Shown here: positions 43,698 through 50,617 of the stretch, piece by piece
Layout: the number at the start of each line of letters is the position of its first letter
How positions within the stretch are numbered: the stretch's first letter is position 1
Assembly: GCA_030653935.1 (NCBI GenBank)
Contig: JAURYL010000055.1
Span: forward strand, 1 to 50,617
Reading direction: 5' to 3'
Length of the DNA: 50,617 nucleotides
Origin: Pseudomonadota bacterium
Lineage (GTDB): Bacteria > Pseudomonadota > Gammaproteobacteria > Burkholderiales > Thiobacillaceae
Made by a program: the position numbers and the translations under genes
Notes under the pieces: model-generated
What the model was told of the DNA's origin: nothing
Seen by the model: only the letters and a program-made list of their open reading frames with translations
The model's database searches: none

Positions 43698-45012
43698 ACT
43701 GTCCGGTTAAAAGAATGGATGAACCGCTGAAAGCCAAGACTGACGCGGGTTCCCGAGCGAAAGAGGGTGGTGTCGATTTGAATGGAGAGGCCCGATTCCG
43801 GCAGCCTCCCGGGCTTTGGCCGGGAGATCGCCATGAATGTCGGCAAGACACTGTTTGCCCAACTGATGGACTTTCTGCCGTGGACGGCATTTGCCCGGTA
43901 CGTGGCTCGCTACGATGGCGACAAAGGGGTGCGCACGCTGTATTGCGCGGAGCAGTTCCGGGTCATGGCTTTTGCCCAATTGACCTACCGGGAGAGCCTG
44001 CGCGACATCGAAACCTGTCTGTCGGCCCAGTCCGCCAAGCTCTACCACATGGGATTTCGCGAGCCGGTGCGACGCTCGACCCTGGCCGATGCCAACGAAT
44101 CGCGCGATTGGCGCATCTGGGCCGACTTCGCACAGCGCCTGATCATCCAGGCGCGGGCGCTCTATGCCAGCGAAAACTTGGGGCTGGAATTGACGAATAC
44201 GGTGTACGCCCTGGATTCGACGACCATCGACCTGTGCCTGTCGCTGTTTCCCTGGGCGCACTTCCGCTCGACCAAGGCTGCCGTGAAGATGCACACACTG
44301 CTCGACCTGAAGGGCAACATTCCGAGCTTCATCCATGTTTCCGATGGCAAGCTGCACGATGTGCATGCGCTCGATTTGCTGCCCCTGGAAGCCCGGCGCC
44401 ATCTACGTGATGGATCGCGGTTACGTCGATTTCGGGCGGCTGCATGTCCTGCATCTGGCAGGCGCCTTCTTCGTCACGCGAGCCAAGTCGAACATGAACT
44501 TCCATCGGGTCTATTCGGCCAAGACGGACCGCAGCACTGGCCTCATTTGCGACCAGACCATCGCCTTGGATGGCCACTACACCAAGAAGGGCTACCCCGA
44601 CCACCTGCGTCACGTCCGCTTCAAAGACCCCGAGTCCGGCAAGACGTTCGTCTTCCTCACCAACCAGATGACCTTGCCGGCTGCGAGCATCTGCGCCCTC
44701 TACAAGAGTCGCTGGCAGGTGGAACTCTTCTTTAAGTGGATCAAGCAGCATCTTCGGATCAAACGGTTTTTTGGTACGTCGGAGAATGCGGTCAAGACGC
44801 AAATCTGGATCGCGGTGTCAGTCTATGTCCTGGTTGCCATCATCAAGAAGCGGCTCAACCTGGATGCCTCGCTCTACACTTTGCTACAGATTTTGTCGGT
44901 CACCCTTTTCGAGAGAATGCCCATCCAGCAAGCCTTCCCAGGCGATGCCAACAGAACCAATCAGGGTGACGCGTGCAACCAATTGAATTTGTTCATTATT
45001 TAACCGGACAGT
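43698..45012 (+). mobile_element. IS4-family insertion sequence (DUF4372-type)
   Basis: Terminal inverted repeats ACTGTCCGGTTAA (43698-43710) and TTAACCGGACAGT (45000-45012) match perfectly and extend to CTACTGTCCGGTTAAA if flanking bases are included. Length is about 1.3 kb with one transposase gene. No clear target-site duplication flanks it. The transposase carries a frameshift, so the copy is probably inactive. It separates the hflX/repeat region from the defence-like gene set. Confidence 0.9.
43833..45003 (+). pseudogene. IS4-family transposase with one frameshift
   Basis: DDE transposase of the IS4 group with an N-terminal DUF4372 segment (MNVGKTLFAQLMDFLPW, FRVMAFAQLTYRESLRDIE). Catalytic parts are TVYALDSTTIDLCLSLFPW (first D), IYVMDRGYVDFGRL (second D) and the YREK-like region SRWQVELFFKWIKQHLRI (E). 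An extra base at about 44391 shifts the frame: GAAGCCC is found where GAACCC would give LEPGAIYVMDRGY. The stop codon (45001-45003) lies in the right terminal repeat. GGGAGA lies before the start at 43833. Confidence 0.9.
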
Positions 45013-45023
45013 AGCGTACTGAA

Positions 45024-47423
45024 CTATTCGTTCTTGGGGGCAATGAGCAAATCTGCGGCCCCCCGCGCCTGTTCGCCAATTCTGTAGCCCATCGCTCGAT
45101 ACCCGCGCTCGCGCTTGTCCCACATCCGCAGCAGCGCGGGGTGGCCGGTGTCCACGAAATCGATAATCCGCACATCTGTCTTGGTCGCATGCTCTCGGTG
45201 CAATCGGCCGGCGTATTGCTGCAAGGTGCCCTTCCAAGAGATGGGCATGGCCAGAATCAAGGTATCGAGGGGTGGGTGGTCGAATCCCTCGCCCACGAGT
45301 TTGCCGGTGGCTAGCAGGACGCGCGGCGCGTCTGGCGGCAAGGCATTGAGGCCCACAATCATGGAGGCGCGCTGCTTTTTCGACATTCTGCCGTGCAGCA
45401 CGAAAAACGTAGCCACCTGCTGGGCAATGGCGGCATGGATGGCGTCCAGATGTTCAGTGCGCTCGGTAAGGACCAGCACCTTACGTCCTTGCCCATAAGC
45501 GCTGACGATGTCGACGGCGATGGCCGCCGTGCGCTCCGGATCGTTCGCGAGGTGACGAAACACATCCTGAATGCCGGCCCCTTCCGGCAAATCAATTCGC
45601 TTGTGCAACGGGCGCGGCATCACTTCCAGGTCATGAGGAGCGGTATCCGGCTTCGTCGCCGTGTACCGGATCGGCCCGCATTGCATGAATATGATCGGTT
45701 GCTGGCCATCCCGGCGGATCGGGGTGGCGGTCAGGCCGAGCACGTATTGCGCCTTGGCGCGTTTCAGGATGTTGTCGAAGGACACGGCGACGACGTGATG
45801 ACACTCATCTACGATGACGTGGCCGTAGTTCTCGACCAGCGGGTTGACCTTGCCTTGCCTTGAGAGCGACTGCATCACGGCAATGTCGATTTTGCCGGTG
45901 GGCTTGGCTTTGCCGCCGCCGATGCTGCCGACCACGCCCTTGCCGACATCCAGGAAGGCATGGAGCCGTTCCTGCCATTGTTTCAGTAGTTCGGTGCGAT
46001 GAACCAGTACCAGCGTGTTCACGCCCCGCCGGGCAATCATGGCGGCGGCGGTGACGGTCTTGCCAAAAGCGGTGGGGGCGCATAGCACGCCGGCGTCGTG
46101 GTGCAGCATCGCCGACACCGCCATTTCTTGGTCAAACCGTAGTTCGCCAGCGAAATGCACATCGAGAGGTTCCCCGGCGTACCGTTCATCCCGGAGATCG
46201 CAGCGGATGCCGGCATCGCGTAGCAAGGCCTGCGCGGGTTCCAGGCAACCGCGTGGCAAAGCGATGTGTTGCGGATAATTTTCCGCGCAGCCGATCACAC
46301 GGGGGGTGTCCCATACCGACATCCGCATCGCCTGCGCCTTGTAAAACTCCGGGTTCTGGAAGGCGGCAAGGCGGATCAAGCGGTTGGCCAATGGTTGCGG
46401 TAACTGCGCTTTCTCGAAGTAGATCAGGTTGGCCAGCGTCACGGTCAGGGCCTCCGGCAGCGGCCCGGATAACTTTCTGGTTGCAGGCGCAGGCCTTTTC
46501 CACGGCGTCGCCAGGTCTTCCTCGTCGATAAAGGTCACATCCAGCGGATGCACGCCACCCGTGGCCCGGAGAATGGTCGGCTCGATATCGTGCGCCGCCA
46601 TTGGCTGGATGGATGCCAGAAAAGCCCACTGGTCGGCATACGGGTGCAGGCCCGCATCGACGAACACGCTGTGGCCCTGTTCGCGCGGCGCTTTCTGCAA
46701 GGGCAGTGCGATCAGGTTGCCGAAACCACCCTTGGGCATCGTGTCCTGATTCGGGAACAGGCGGTCGTAGGATTCCAGTTTCAGTTGCCGGGTGCGTGAA
46801 CAAGTGTGACTGATGATGGCGGTGCCAAGGCGCCTGGCGTCACGGGCAAAAACCTTGCCGGCGAAGAAAATCCAGGCATGGGCGCCGTTGCCCGATCGCG
46901 AAATTTCGAGGGCGGCGGGCACACCCAACTCCCGACAGGATTGGACAAAGGCTTGCGCATCCTCGCGCCATTCGGCTTCATCGAAATCCACCGCCAGAAA
47001 ATGACAGGTTTCATCGGGCAGAAGCGGGTAAACGCCGATGGTGCGCTTGCCGGCAAGATGCTCATAGATGACCGAATCCGTCAGCGGCAAGAACACCCGA
47101 TTACCGCAGTCCGCGCATTTCATGCGAGGTTTGCCGCAAACCCCAGCCACCCACTCGTTGGCGCAGGCCGGCGCGTACCCGGTTTTCCCCGATGTCTTGC
47201 CTTCCCACCGCACCGGGTAGACATCTGTCCGTCCACGAAACAAACGCCGGAAGAGCGTCACTTTCTCGGCAGTGGTGAGTTTGGATGGCTCGGGCTCAGG
47301 GGGCGGTGGTGCAGGTTCGGGTGGCAAGCGCCATTCGATGCCATGCGCTTCCAGCAGAGCGATCAGGCGGGCATTCTCGACCCGAAGCGTCGCCAGCATG
47401 TTCTGTTCAGAACGCTCCGGCAT
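45024..47423 (-). CDS. Primase (AEP)-superfamily II helicase fusion, TOTE-type conflict protein
   Basis: A 799-aa two-part protein. After a coiled, proline-rich start comes an archaeo-eukaryotic-primase-like domain (about 45-310) with a zinc knuckle (CGKPRMKCADC, 96-106), the catalytic VDFD (D146, D148) and SGNGAHAW (H182). A superfamily II helicase follows (about 425-799): Walker A APTAFGKT (449-456), DECH (539-542), GLTATP, and motif VI QYAGRLHR. Databases use the label TOTE conflict system for this primase family, linked with mobile elements and predicted anti-invader roles. No adjacent nuclease domain is fused. It follows the YgjP-type gene by 6 bases. The start is uncertain; 47399 is an alternative. 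Confidence 0.88.
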   Translation of the reverse strand: MPERSEQNMLATLRVENARLIALLEAHGIEWRLPPEPAPPPPEPEPSKLTTAEKVTLFRRLFRGRTDVYPVRWEGKTSGKTGYAPACANEWVAGVCGKPRMKCADCGNRVFLPLTDSVIYEHLAGKRTIGVYPLLPDETCHFLAVDFDEAEWREDAQAFVQSCRELGVPAALEISRSGNGAHAWIFFAGKVFARDARRLGTAIISHTCSRTRQLKLESYDRLFPNQDTMPKGGFGNLIALPLQKAPREQGHSVFVDAGLHPYADQWAFLASIQPMAAHDIEPTILRATGGVHPLDVTFIDEEDLATPWKRPAPATRKLSGPLPEALTVTLANLIYFEKAQLPQPLANRLIRLAAFQNPEFYKAQAMRMSVWDTPRVIGCAENYPQHIALPRGCLEPAQALLRDAGIRCDLRDERYAGEPLDVHFAGELRFDQEMAVSAMLHHDAGVLCAPTAFGKTVTAAAMIARRGVNTLVLVHRTELLKQWQERLHAFLDVGKGVVGSIGGGKAKPTGKIDIAVMQSLSRQGKVNPLVENYGHVIVDECHHVVAVSFDNILKRAKAQYVLGLTATPIRRDGQQPIIFMQCGPIRYTATKPDTAPHDLEVMPRPLHKRIDLPEGAGIQDVFRHLANDPERTAAIAVDIVSAYGQGRKVLVLTERTEHLDAIHAAIAQQVATFFVLHGRMSKKQRASMIVGLNALPPDAPRVLLATGKLVGEGFDHPPLDTLILAMPISWKGTLQQYAGRLHREHATKTDVRIIDFVDTGHPALLRMWDKRERGYRAMGYRIGEQARGAADLLIAPKNE

Positions 47424-47429
47424 TGCGTA

Positions 47430-48209
47430 TCACAGCAGGAAATCCGTTCCACTTTGCGCCCAAAGTGGTACCGCCTTCCAGGCATCACGCATTCGACCGT
47501 GCAGAGAATCCGAGGAAGGCTCGAAATGGCGCAAGTGCATCCAAAACCGTTCTGAGTGATTTGCCTCCAACAGATGACAGATCTCGTGCAGCAATACGTA
47601 GCGCACCAATTCGCGCGGCAGGAACAGCAGCTTGCAGTTGAGGCTTATGCGTCCATGCGCTGAGCAACTGCCCCAGCGAGTACGCTGGTTTTTTATCGCC
47701 AGATCAACGAAGCGCAGGCCGGTTTGTTCGGCCAGATTCGTCAGCCACGGCGACAGTGCACTCGTGGCATGACGCGCCAGCCAACGCCGCAGCGCAGCAT
47801 GGCATGCCTCAACATCGTCCACGGCACCCGCCACGACGATACGTCCCGGCTGGTCGACACGCGCCCCAACGGTACGGCTGCGTGTAGCCTTGTATTCCAC
47901 GCGCCAGGATTCGGCCAGTGCCGGCAGGTCAAATGCCTGTGGACGAGCAACAGGTTGCGTACCGATCAGATGGCGCACCGCGTCGAATTCCGCCATGCGC
48001 CCAGCAATCCACTCGGCCTTTCCGGCCACCAACGCCAACAACCGCTGTCGGTCTAATCCCAATGGCGCGGTGACTACCAGCCCCTCTCGTGCGCTGAGTT
48101 TCAGGCGCAGCGAACGTGTCCTGGTCGAGGCGCGTATTTCGAACTCCAAATTCCTGCCATCAGGCAGAGCCAACTTGTCGCGGGCCACGACGTCAATCAT
48201 TGCTGACAT
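47430..48209 (-). CDS. YgjP-type (M48/SprT-like) zinc metallopeptidase
   Basis: A 259-aa protein of the YgjP/DUF45 family. The zinc-protease motif HEICHLLEANHSERFW gives H208, E209, H212 and H218, preceded by the family segment NQRTRWGSCSAHGRISLNCK (about 174-193). Such genes often accompany type I restriction enzymes and other DNA-defence loci; the substrate is unknown. The start at 48209 overlaps the upstream frame by 17 bases; an in-frame ATG at 48200 is also possible. It is transcribed directly before the primase-helicase and looks intact. Confidence 0.88.
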   Translation of the reverse strand: MSAMIDVVARDKLALPDGRNLEFEIRASTRTRSLRLKLSAREGLVVTAPLGLDRQRLLALVAGKAEWIAGRMAEFDAVRHLIGTQPVARPQAFDLPALAESWRVEYKATRSRTVGARVDQPGRIVVAGAVDDVEACHAALRRWLARHATSALSPWLTNLAEQTGLRFVDLAIKNQRTRWGSCSAHGRISLNCKLLFLPRELVRYVLLHEICHLLEANHSERFWMHLRHFEPSSDSLHGRMRDAWKAVPLWAQSGTDFLL

Positions 48210-48552
48210 CCACGTGGGTCCCCACCCCCGGTTTGTAATGTCGGCGCTTGAGCACCTGGACCAGGCCGCCGATAAAACCCATCGCGTCGTCGGCAAGCAG
48301 CCCTGCCGACGGGAACTGGTTGGCGACCATGAACAACAGACTGCGCGACAAATCAGGATCGAGCGCATCGGTGCCCCACCAACCAGGGAAGCAGTGCTTG
48401 TCAGCCTCGGCCAGCGTGGCGGCGGCGATCTCGGTAGCGAGCACATTGGTGATCGCTGCGTTGCGACAGCCACGTGCCGTGCCCGCCGGGTTGGTCGACT
48501 GGTCCGGCGTGCCCCGATGGCAACTGGATGGGGCCAAAGCCGATCCGGCCAT
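48193..48552 (-). pseudogene. Unidentified fragment, possible C-terminus of a lost gene
   Basis: About 119 residues open to the stop at 48193, ending LKRRHYKPGVGTHVDVSND. The segment ATEIAAATLAEADKHCFPGW with DALDPDLSRSLLFMVANQFP looks like real protein. Upstream of about 48450 a second frame (YGRIGFGPIQLPSGHAGP) looks more protein-like, so a frameshift is likely. I do not recognise the family. The 3' end overlaps the metallopeptidase start, suggesting former translational coupling. Confidence 0.4.
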
Positions 48553-48636
48553 AGGAAAGCCTTGACACAGCCAGACCCTGGAGGGCACCCTTGACCGGAG
48601 TTCACTGCCTATCGGCTTTGAACCTATCGAGGTTTC

Positions 48637-48673
48637 GGCCGCTGAACCCGCGTAGCGAATCAGCGGCCTTTTT
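48637..48673 (+). terminator. Intrinsic terminator on the plus strand inside the minus-strand island
   Basis: GGCCGCTGA (48637-48645) pairs with TCAGCGGCC (48660-48668), followed by TTTTT. It points right, against the direction of all neighbouring genes. No plus-strand gene ends here, so it may be a relic of an earlier arrangement or a junction. Confidence 0.7.
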
Positions 48674-48689
48674 CTTTTCTGGCCCCCGC

Positions 48690-49161
48690 TCATGGGCCCA
48701 CTCCCAGCAGCCGCAAGCAGTCCGCTCTGGACCACATGGGCGAAGCCCTGATCTTGCCAATGCTGTTGTCGGCCTGATAGCAGGTCACGAAATTGGCTTT
48801 CAGCGAGCCATCCCGCTTCAGTCCCATCGCCACCACGACCACAAAATCCTCGTAGACCACGGCAACACGGCGGGTCGAGTCGTATGCGCGTGCGACCTTG
48901 TCCCATCCCTCGTAAACGGCTGCCTGGGGATGTTCGAGCGTGGACTTGATCCAGTCGATGCGCTTGGCGCGCACCGGCGAAAAAGCATCTTTGCGGCCAT
49001 CCCGCGCCGTGCTCTCGTAGAACATGTGGCCGAACTTGCCGGCCGCGAAATACACCCGTATGCCATCGAAGGTTTGGATATTTGCCGCGGCAGTAAACCC
49101 GTTCGTAATGGGTATGGTATTCAGCCACGGTGGCGTAGCGGACGAGAGGCGGCAATGCCAT
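48690..49161 (-). pseudogene. Small protein next to DUF3800, possible nuclease-like; one frameshift
   Basis: About 156 aa if repaired. The start at 49161 (MALPPLVRYATVAEYHTHYE) overlaps the native DUF3800 stop by one base. The body, in the other frame, contains FDGIRVYFAAGKFGHMFYES, RDGRKDAFSPVRAKRIDWIK, EGWDKVARAYDSTRRVAVVY and NSIGKIRASPMW. One extra T at about 49078 (GGCAAATATCC for GGCAAAATCC) splits it. The layout (Tyr/His/Ser-rich beta core, W-D-K motif) recalls the phage Barnase/EndoU/RelE-like nuclease group, but I hold this loosely. Confidence 0.5.
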
Positions 49162-49860
49162 CACCAGCCCCCCTGCAGGCGGATTTTGAAAATGTTGAAC
49201 TTCTCTTCGTTCTTGTGGGGGGGGCGCCAGCGGCCGGCCGATTGCAGACTCCAGCCGCCGTACCACGGTCGCCTTGGCGCTGCCGTCTCGTAGCGTGGCG
49301 TTGATGCGGCTGTTAGCCGCCCCCAAGAGTAGATCGCAAAGCTGAATCAGCACGACCTCGTTGGAATGGAGTGACTGGGTGCTCTCGATTCCCGACGACA
49401 GGTTGGCTCGCGCTAGACAGCGGGCCAGAACGGGCAGGCGCTTGGGGTCACGATTGCTCTTGGCATCACAGAAGATCCGGTAATCGTTGAAGTCCAGAAT
49501 CCAGTGGTGCAGTAACTGGTAATAGAACTTGTAAAAACCGAGCTCACCATCGTTTTCATGAAGCGCCAGATTCAACTGCGTGTGATCTACCGCGATGCAT
49601 CGGAAACGTAGGTTGTCGCCATAACTGACAAACAGATCGATCAGTTCTACGTAAAAGTCCAGGCGGTTCGGAGAGACTTTGCTCCACTTGATTTCACCCC
49701 AGGACTGGTGGCGCTCGCGCAGTGCGAAGACGCGCGCTTTGATTTCGCCGCGTAGCGCAGCAGGCAACCACAGACTGCCGATCATCAGGTGACGCGCGCG
49801 AGGATGGTCTGAAGTCAAAACATCAGGGTTGGCCTCGTCGCAGTAAACCTCGAACTTCAT
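49161..49860 (-). pseudogene. DUF3800-family protein with a frameshift in a C8 tract
   Basis: About 232 aa if repaired. MKFEVYCDEANPDVLTSDHP, GEIKWSKVSPNRLDFYVELI and DFNDYRIFCDAKSNRDPKRL are typical of DUF3800, whose D/E-rich core suggests an RNase H-like fold; these proteins occur in phage and defence settings. At about 49217-49224 a run of eight C (minus strand) breaks the frame. With seven, the protein continues HKNEEKFNIFKIRLQGGW and stops at 49161-49163. The ATG overlaps the upstream regulator stop by 4 bases. A homopolymer length change may be biological or a sequencing artefact. Confidence 0.82.
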
Positions 49861-50201
49861 GCCTGATCTCCCTTGGGCGCGTTCAACATGATGAGGAACT
49901 CGGTCGCCAACGCGACTGGCTCGATCTCTCGCACGTTCTTCTTCAATTTCACAAGGCCGTAGCCCTCCATCATCCGCAGCGTGCGCGACAGGTTCGACAC
50001 CTGACGACCCGTGAGCGCGGCCAACTCAGTCAGCGACCTGGGCCGCTTGTCATGAATGAGCCGTAACATGGCCTGATTATCCTCGGATAGGACCGCTGCC
50101 ATTGTGGCCATCGAGGGAAACCAAACAGCCGGGGTGTCTTTGCCGGATGGCAGCGGCTCCATCTCTCCGGGGCGACGAATACCGACAACGCAGTGCTTCA
50201 T
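49857..50201 (-). CDS. Winged-helix transcriptional regulator (MarR/HVO_A0114-like)
   Basis: A 114-aa protein with a C-terminal winged helix: DNQAMLRLIHDKRPRSLTEL, AALTGRQVSNLSRTLRMMEG, YGLVKLKKNVREIEP. The short N-terminus (MKHCVVGIRRPGEMEP) is not recognisable. The start at 50201 was chosen because the family begins near here. It overlaps the DUF3800 gene by 4 bases and is first in the minus-strand set, so it probably regulates the island's transcription; an antitoxin-like role is possible but not shown. Confidence 0.75.
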   Translation of the reverse strand: MKHCVVGIRRPGEMEPLPSGKDTPAVWFPSMATMAAVLSEDNQAMLRLIHDKRPRSLTELAALTGRQVSNLSRTLRMMEGYGLVKLKKNVREIEPVALATEFLIMLNAPKGDQA

Positions 50202-50590
50202 CTCGGATGTCCCGGGTGGCATGGATGAATTTGCGAGTTTATCAATGTGGCACAACCACAGCCAGATCATGATGAACAAGCTTGGCTTCCTGATCCCACA
50301 GCGTGTTCATGAGGGTGTCGTCAACCACCTCGGAACCCACGATGAACGCCAAGCAAACAGCCCTCGACGACAGCCTCGCCCGCACCGCCTCCATCCGCGC
50401 CAAGCCAGAACGGCCGCGACAACGCACCTACCCCACGTTTAACAACCTCCCCCTCAATTCCCCTCAATTCCCATTGAATTCCGCCCGTAACCCGTTGATT
50501 ATTCGTTTTTCTCACCCATAAACCCCCGTGTAGTGCCTTATTATTTCTTATGGCACCCCACAAACCCCTTGCCAGGCGCTATCCTTTCGG
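50202..50590. other. Intergenic stretch at the right edge
   Basis: The region presumably contains the promoter of the minus-strand island (AT-rich 50220-50290). A short plus-strand frame from 50342 (MNAKQTALDDSLARTASIRA) continues to 50521 but has no convincing ribosome-binding site or family. The direct repeat CCCCTCAATTCCCCTCAATT lies near 50452. I see no RNA gene. Confidence 0.4.
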
Positions 50591-50617
50591 CATGTTCATC
50601 CGCCGCACCCCCACCCG
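50591..50617 (+). CDS. Possible start of an IS1634-type transposase (cut by the window edge)
   Basis: Only nine codons are visible: MFIRRTPTR. This resembles the first residues of IS1634-family transposases (MFIRK/R-T-x-T-R). An A/T-rich stretch with TTATTATTTCTTATGGCAC lies 45 bases upstream and could hold an IS end. The evidence is thin. Confidence 0.35.

Follow-up and report, generated by a model that had tools for sequence, protein, structure and literature searches.

A structured RNA accompanies a DUF3800-PBECR gene pair in the remnant of a type I restriction-modification island

Gene content of the locus

We analysed a minus-strand gene set on contig JAURYL010000055.1 that includes a DUF3800 gene, a PBECR-like nuclease gene and, beside them, a conserved structured RNA of approximately 72 nucleotides (nt). 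Position numbers refer throughout to the whole stretch of 50,617 nt, hereafter the window, whose right edge is also the end of the contig; related loci, genomes and contigs carry our own L, G and C numbers. Protein-family matches between 45024 and 50279 are all on the minus strand and the genes overlap or are separated by a few bases, so that the arrangement originally predicted is borne out by both the open reading frames (ORFs) and the family matches. In the direction of transcription Pfam identifies first a winged helix like HVO_A0114, then DUF3800, a PBECR2 match too weak to reach the cut-off, YgjP, and last an AEP-TOTE domain fused to an SF2 helicase. Three of the predicted genes are confirmed by these matches and have open reading frames: the winged-helix regulator (helix-turn-helix, HTH; 49857-50279, start codon uncertain; E 1.5e-17), the YgjP-like zinc metallopeptidase (47430-48200; E 6.4e-44) and the primase-helicase fusion of 799 amino acids (45024-47423; AEP-TOTE 8.9e-102, ResIII 1.6e-23, Helicase_C 6.8e-08), which is full length against full-length homologues and 96 % identical in L031.

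A DUF3800 protein and a small nuclease had likewise been predicted. The family assignments hold, DUF3800 (49164-49860) being matched by Pfam (E 8.1e-07) and by PDC-M04A of PADLOC (E 6.8e-63), and the PBECR-like gene (48690-49167) by PDC-M04B (E 1.5e-49), while its Pfam score of 15.1 bits falls below the curated cut-off of 27.1 bits for PBECR2 (PF18810). The integrity of the genes does not hold: comparison with three relatives places the loss of the DUF3800 frame near 49.22 kb and of the PBECR frame near 49.08 kb, and the 555-amino-acid ORF at 48193-49860 is not a single gene.

The most complete relative, L039, has the order HTH, DUF3800, PBECR, HsdM (as two ORFs), HsdS, HsdR, YgjP and primase-helicase. 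Using blastn, window positions 50404-48598 correspond to L039 821-2615 and positions 48465-45076 to L039 8954-12335, so that by this comparison about 6.3 kb comprising hsdM, hsdS and most of hsdR has gone from the window. What had been called an unidentified fragment before YgjP (48193-48465) is the last 90 codons of hsdR, with 80 % identity to residues 927-1007 of the L039 HsdR and a stop codon overlapping the YgjP start. The 132 bp between the two matching blocks (48466-48597) are not foreign; by homology to contig C146 of G018, a genome of the same genus, they belong to the stretch upstream of hsdM, which places the deletion joint at approximately 48461-48465. One G018 contig carries the HTH gene, intact DUF3800 and PBECR genes, the RNA and a partial hsdM, residues 5-336 of which run into hsdR residues 222-322 near the contig end, a joint that is provisional in this draft assembly. 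A second G018 contig (L031) carries hsdR, cut at its 5′ end, YgjP and the primase-helicase.

The gene set is not a chance one because L039 has these genes in identical order and so, over two contigs, does G018. Judged from these alignments the window gene set is what a deletion left of a mobile type I restriction-modification (R-M) island, its two ends now brought together, an anatomy of which we are highly confident, and for the ancestral island we infer the order HTH, DUF3800, PBECR, small RNA, hsdM, hsdS, hsdR, YgjP, primase-helicase. Erosion of the island is common, for G018, L035 and L039 are damaged as well; in L035 the opening 29 codons of DUF3800 and the tail of PBECR remain, together with the RNA and the primase-helicase. 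In L201 the HTH gene is followed by a DUF3800 remnant, the RNA, two long ORFs that we read as Mod and Res of a type III system, a gene resembling a family of about 181 amino acids described below, and the primase-helicase. Identity between window positions 45017-48465 and L031 is mosaic (hsdR end 73.5 %, most of YgjP 91-97 %, middle of the primase-helicase up to 100 %), suggesting recombination.

A conserved structured RNA beside PBECR

The structured RNA lies at 48598-48670 on the minus strand, at or just past the PBECR stop codon, within a match to our covariance model R1 at 48592-48684. Between the window and L125, L149, L177 and L144 it keeps 86-90 % identity, compared with 61-66 % over the final 200 nt of PBECR and 27-38 % in the DNA beyond the RNA. 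The fold has two or three hairpins. From 19 sequences RNAalifold predicts 21 pairs; the score of a version with three hairpins is similar, the middle hairpin being the weakest (84-85 % paired), and unpaired positions are also conserved. R1 finds the RNA in all 24 loci with both genes that are of Pseudomonadota type, a label which for the viral-collection contigs among them is our own (L039, L122-L125, L143-L150, L176-L184, L194 and L225), including ten that lay outside the model (L124, L150, L178-L184, L225; E 1.4e-12 to 9.3e-08). As a control we used 80 primase-helicase loci, 78 of which have no R1 match below E 0.1, the RNA being present in the other two (L039 and L035). The source genome has a single R1 match.

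Compensatory change is frequent. Among 29 sequences, the rows of which had been fitted to the model, 96.8 % of cells pair against 92.5 % in shuffles and there are 21 both-side changes against 4.6, although further pair types do not stand out in number (85/500 shuffles as high). When the opposite-strand homologues described below are included in a plain MAFFT alignment, the figures are 93.1 % against 85.9 % and 24 both-side changes against 5.9, with further pair types not above shuffles (262/500). In the window no Rfam 15 model reaches E ≤ 1 against the RNA, nor does any reach E ≤ 5 in L194, L125, L149 and L144, a scan outside which six RNA-bearing loci lay, and a scan at gathering thresholds likewise gave no match. 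A coding peptide was also considered. By inspection a frame (PLIRxAGSA...) is open in most copies, yet L144 has it shifted and L201 interrupts it with a stop; we rejected a peptide because the compensatory changes speak for an RNA.

Homologous sequence is present on the opposite strand, 31-88 nt past the PBECR stop, in the AT-rich viral-collection loci L151-L156, L159 and L161, which are prophage-like; seven of these entered the alignment above, aligned in one orientation only. That the homologue is kept 3′ of PBECR though its strand has changed argues for a separate RNA gene, which we consider probable.

The RNA occurs in 9 of 369 genomes of the class, in all nine with the gene pair or its remnants adjoining. 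Both genes are present in five (G197, G350, G363, G819 and the source genome G000, where the copies are broken) and only remnants in four (G222, G252, G266, G378). A complete RNA accompanies truncated protein genes in five loci, three of which were reached through the HTH gene (L199, L201, L209), one through the primase-helicase (L035) and one through the RNA itself (L222). An RNA that outlives its truncated proteins is as expected for an antitoxin outliving a toxin.

The DUF3800-PBECR pair

We examined 23 DUF3800 loci (L122-L125 and L143-L161). DUF3800 is present in each, as a partial gene only in L160, and PBECR lies directly downstream in the other 22; in 21 loci the two genes overlap by up to 8 bases or lie up to 47 bases apart. 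PDC-M04B is matched by 15 of 15 PBECR relatives. The fetched stretch contains hsd genes in nine of the 23. In six (L125, which is from a plasmid of Phyllobacterium zundukense, L143, L144, L146, L148, L149) the pair lies between hsdS and hsdR, and L145 ends after the pair; hsdM, hsdS and hsdR are all present by similarity in L125, L143, L146 and L148, the hsdR match being partial in L144 (at a contig end) and L149. A Methylase_S gene directly precedes the pair in L124 with hsdR 3.6 kb downstream, while the pair stands before hsdM in L039 and after YgjP in L150. All nine further loci from genomes of the phylum also have the pair. L151-L161 are viral-collection contigs, and integrase, endolysin-type and terminase families are matched among 43 neighbour genes, mostly chosen from 146 listed for both kinds of locus, in an output that does not assign matches to genes. 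A PBECR query of viral contigs gave no confirmed relative, yet PBECR is present in 18 of 19 viral loci reached through DUF3800.

A structure model of the L039 DUF3800 protein (pLDDT 90.9) matches RNase HII (1eke) in Foldseek at E 2.2e-06, giving a predicted RNase HII-like fold. D8, E9, D132 and D176 are present in 21 of 21 DUF3800 sequences and are kept in the window; we take these, matched by order and not by residue alignment, to be the DEDD residues of RNase HII. The PBECR model has a confidence of 91.3, and we regard PBECR as a probable RNase of weak BECR assignment. We found no paper linking DUF3800 with type I restriction, or RNase HII with DUF3800. In L178, L181 and L183 a protein of 334-345 amino acids, 74-85 % identical among the three, is encoded upstream of DUF3800 and corresponds to PADLOC PDC-S64 (E 3.3e-48 for L178).

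The pair thus occurs with or without type I R-M genes, while the primase-helicase ends many unrelated defence operons. On comparison of these loci the DUF3800-PBECR pair with its RNA appears as a separate, transferable three-part module, and the window locus is the scar left by an island of a known kind, whose parts are interchangeable. The defensive nature and mobility foreseen for the gene set find support in the PADLOC candidate PDC-M04, in complete relatives that are type I R-M islands and in a sporadic distribution; its description as one novel six-gene system does not survive, the two ends of a larger island having been joined by deletion and the modules occurring apart elsewhere.

Comparison with known systems

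The closest described arrangement is the RRDM island of E. coli E2348/69, given in the available text of its report as RptR, HsdM, HsdS, DarTG2, HsdR and an M48 peptidase (PMC12255303). It is experimentally active, lowering the plating of five phages on E. coli DH5alpha, and its authors describe the gap between hsdS and hsdR as a potential recombination hotspot (PMC12255303). As far as that text goes, both islands combine a small regulator with type I R-M genes, a pair of genes inside the island, a zinc metallopeptidase after hsdR and flanking insertion sequences. They differ in the regulator, which here is HVO_A0114-like and lacks TAGCTA-type sites in four promoter regions (RptR itself was not searched for), in having the DUF3800-PBECR pair and RNA where RRDM has DarTG2, and in the primase-helicase that follows in the window, L039 and L031; the R-M core of the window is moreover deleted down to the hsdR 3′ end. 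M48 and YgjP are likened by position and not by sequence comparison. RptR control was rejected on the same promoter regions, none of which holds an RptR-type site.

Both proteins match PADLOC candidate PDC-M04, the window copies being frame-broken; to these protein models we add an RNA partner and the embedding in type I R-M operons. Structured RNA motifs beside DUF3800 (DUF3800-I, DUF3800-IX and others) are also in Rfam, although none of the covariance models matches the RNA described here. DUF3800 RNA motifs were reportedly the subject of a paper in 2017, and we know of no mechanism for those catalogued near DUF3800. The Rfam entries are covered in two reports (PMC11701678, PMC7657543). AbiF-RCd22 is described as an RNA antitoxin system in a prophage (PMC12373285). 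As in type III toxin-antitoxin systems and AbiF-RCd22, insofar as the available accounts describe them, a structured RNA is found here with a putative toxic protein; unlike them, the protein families are unrelated, there are two protein genes, and the RNA is a single unit 3′ of the genes, on the opposite strand in some loci. The anticodon nuclease PrrC offers an RNase-type guard linked to type I R-M (PMC2610378, excerpt), although its protein family is different and control of a guard by Hsd proteins or through tRNA cleavage would apply here by analogy only.

Interpretation and alternatives

What makes the locus interesting is the RNA, which adds a third part to the DUF3800-PBECR module. Proteins of the DUF3800 family are widespread but of unclear role, and an RNA beside two nuclease-like genes makes the choice between antitoxin and cofactor directly testable. 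The R-M embedding site known from RRDM also gains another cargo. Overall we favour, by a modest degree, a deleted R-M island in which an RNA-controlled nuclease pair served as a guard of the R-M system. The folded RNA would hold DUF3800, with its predicted RNase HII-like fold and DEDD set, and PBECR, a probable RNase, in check; infection disturbing the RNA or the R-M complex would free the nucleases to stop translation or phage growth. The pair would then act as a guard covering R-M failure, in a role analogous to that of PrrC or of DarTG2 in RRDM, with the HTH protein repressing the operon and YgjP and the primase-helicase as accessory genes common to other defence loci. The RNA as inhibitor of the nuclease pair is, on its own, slightly less probable than its contrary. 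The general proposal, that DUF3800, PBECR and the approximately 72-nt RNA form an immune module silenced (or armed) by a dedicated RNA, which extends from Pseudomonadota into AT-rich prophages and has been built into R-M operons time and again as a guard firing when restriction is defeated, is more tentative still. If it is true, the module would represent a new class of toxin-antitoxin or defence system regulated by RNA.

Several observations weigh against this explanation. G018 and G000 are draft assemblies, and L039 comes from a record titled UNVERIFIED_CONTAM and has a split hsdM. Because few pairs from phylum genomes adjoin R-M genes (of the nine, clear hsd genes are present in L184 alone, and a methyltransferase gene in L180), a role as R-M guard is not general. 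For the PBECR model neither PDB nor the viral library gives a fold match at E ≤ 0.001; weaker scores are E 0.27 for a RelE chain (3bpq_B) in PDB and, in the viral library, E 0.0027-0.0033 at best, including a polyvalent-protein domain, with MuF domains only at E 0.2. PBECR2 matches 5 of 15 family members at E ≤ 0.05 (best 8.2e-04), with none for L039. In the AT-rich loci R1 is weak (L151 E 0.0013, L152 0.0029, L155 0.0037, L153 0.076) or without a match at E ≤ 1 (L154, L156-L159, L161), and since antisense echoes of true RNA copies reach E 0.037 (L123), the opposite-strand claim depends mainly on the aligned sequence. The pattern of an RNA kept after protein loss comprises five loci, and in L199 and L222 (genomes G266 and G378) the remnants are of 13-33 residues at E 0.006-0.009. 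Type III antitoxins are typically tandem-repeat RNAs upstream of the toxin, whereas by inspection the RNA here lies downstream and consists of one unit without repeats.

The window DUF3800 and PBECR segments, finally, have dN/dS of 0.028-0.129 where computable (dS is saturated in two DUF3800 comparisons), about as low as the 0.031-0.094 found among intact copies, and the breaks are therefore either very recent or sequence errors. Were both of them errors, HTH, DUF3800, PBECR and RNA would all work in the source strain and only the R-M core would have been lost. This is possible though somewhat doubtful: both breaks are single-base length differences within runs of one base, the four DUF3800 residues are kept and both genes are intact in G018, but two breaks fall in adjoining genes beside a deletion, and G018, L035 and L039 show damage to the island as well. 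Unless both breaks are such errors the DUF3800 and PBECR proteins are probably dead or dying in the source strain.

The RNA could alternatively be an active cofactor, a guide or activator of DUF3800, the three parts forming an RNA-protein immune complex. DUF3800 proteins are described, in the available text of the reports, as accompanying some Cas12 and type VI loci and as having an RNase H fold, the rare Cas12 loci being treated in the first (PMC10910872, PMC12669027). The presence of the four DEDD residues in every sequence and the conservation of unpaired RNA positions fit such a role, but by inspection we see no spacer-like variable segment in the RNA and its survival after protein loss fits an antitoxin better, making a cofactor unlikely. 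Less probable again is a conserved DNA-level or cis feature (a terminator, attenuator or recombination site) with no separate RNA gene. The element does lie between PBECR and the next operon, and deletions end nearby in several loci; against this stand the absence of any terminator-like site found on the minus strand within 48400-50500, the compensatory changes, the single R1 match in its own genome and the strand-reversed homologue still 3′ of PBECR in AT-rich prophage-like loci. An intact, unnamed six-gene conflict operon has its tight one-strand spacing and three open genes (HTH, YgjP, primase-helicase) in its favour, but with hsdM, hsdS and most of hsdR missing, two genes broken, the modules apart elsewhere and none of the loci examined carrying the same six genes intact without hsdMSR, it is very improbable indeed.

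Primase-helicase, YgjP and HTH genes in other loci

Some match to the primase-helicase is present in 26 of 117 genomes of the family, and seven of these, the source genome included, have a near full-length copy (78-100 % identity), one with an internal stop; together with the occurrence of the RNA in the class this makes the distribution sporadic. Across the 80 primase-helicase loci (L031-L110; identity 72-82 %, 96 % in L031) the gene ends very different defence operons. Upstream genes listed for 57 of 79 loci numbered 99, and in the 87 of them that were scanned RhuM was matched in 12, AbiEii in 6, HsdR domain 3 of type I systems in 5, YgjP in 4 and Fic in 3, and with neighbours varying in this way (RhuM, AbiEii, HsdR, YgjP, Fic, YhcG) we rejected the primase-helicase as the core of a fixed operon. 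A joint action of RNase HII and primase on RNA primers was also dropped, there being no primase-helicase match in sets of 23 and 12 pair loci that share three loci and have flanks of about 8-10 kb. The dN/dS against L031 is 0.08 for YgjP, which has the same value against L039, and 0.19 for the primase-helicase. We take the window protein to be a member of the Z1568-like primase family. A primase family resembling Z1568 of E. coli is described in PMC5862659 (excerpt). The locus is not a TOTE system in the published sense: it has the AEP-TOTE domain, but TOTE conflict systems are described as having TPR, OB and TBP partners and an effector (PMC12458937, excerpt), and no TPR, OB or TBP match was found among the seven window proteins scanned.

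A family of about 181 amino acids is encoded just upstream of the primase-helicase in 15 of the 80 loci (L036, L040, L048, L050, L051, L055, L077, L087 and others), in many cases overlapping its start. Its longest member has no Pfam match, DUF6155 was matched by 2 of the 87 upstream genes, perhaps these, and the protein may be the usual partner of the primase-helicase.

A role of the HTH protein as a dedicated R-M regulator was rejected, none of 17 further HTH loci having hsd genes by similarity search, although its position next to an HsdM-cluster gene in L093 counts against this rejection. Among the 17, L201 carries a DUF3800 remnant together with the primase-helicase, and L209 a PBECR remnant. 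The gene following hsdR is of the SprT family in L125 and YgjP in L039.

Flanking elements

The predicted IS4 element on the left is present at 43698-45012 on the plus strand, with DUF4372 and DDE matches and inverted ends at approximately 43698 and 45012; it ends about 10 bp past the primase-helicase stop. Its transposase (43782-45003) is split over two overlapping frames, and this copy may be inactive. Ten proteins further left were scanned; Pfam matches were obtained for eight, which include a tRNA synthetase, LptF/G and a GTPase and appear to be chromosomal. Elsewhere in the source genome there are five HSDR_N matches (contigs C77, C120, C84, C70 and C85), and further type I R-M systems may remain there.

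The transposase start proposed at the right edge corresponds to the beginning of a repeated, insertion-sequence-like element (50428-50617, plus strand) that is cut by the contig end and recurs, whole or in part, at four further places in the same genome. One copy reads on into a protein starting MFIRRTPTRRN, presumably a transposase. The contig stops here, as expected at a repeat. The adjoining 50342-50427 on the plus strand is the 5′ part of a small divergent ORF (MNAKQTALDD...). This ORF (MNTKQTALDAYLARTAAIHAKL... in L049), or part of it, recurs upstream or downstream near several primase-helicase loci (L039 821-904, L042 14217-14330, and L048, L049, L090 and L031) and perhaps marks the same mobile elements.

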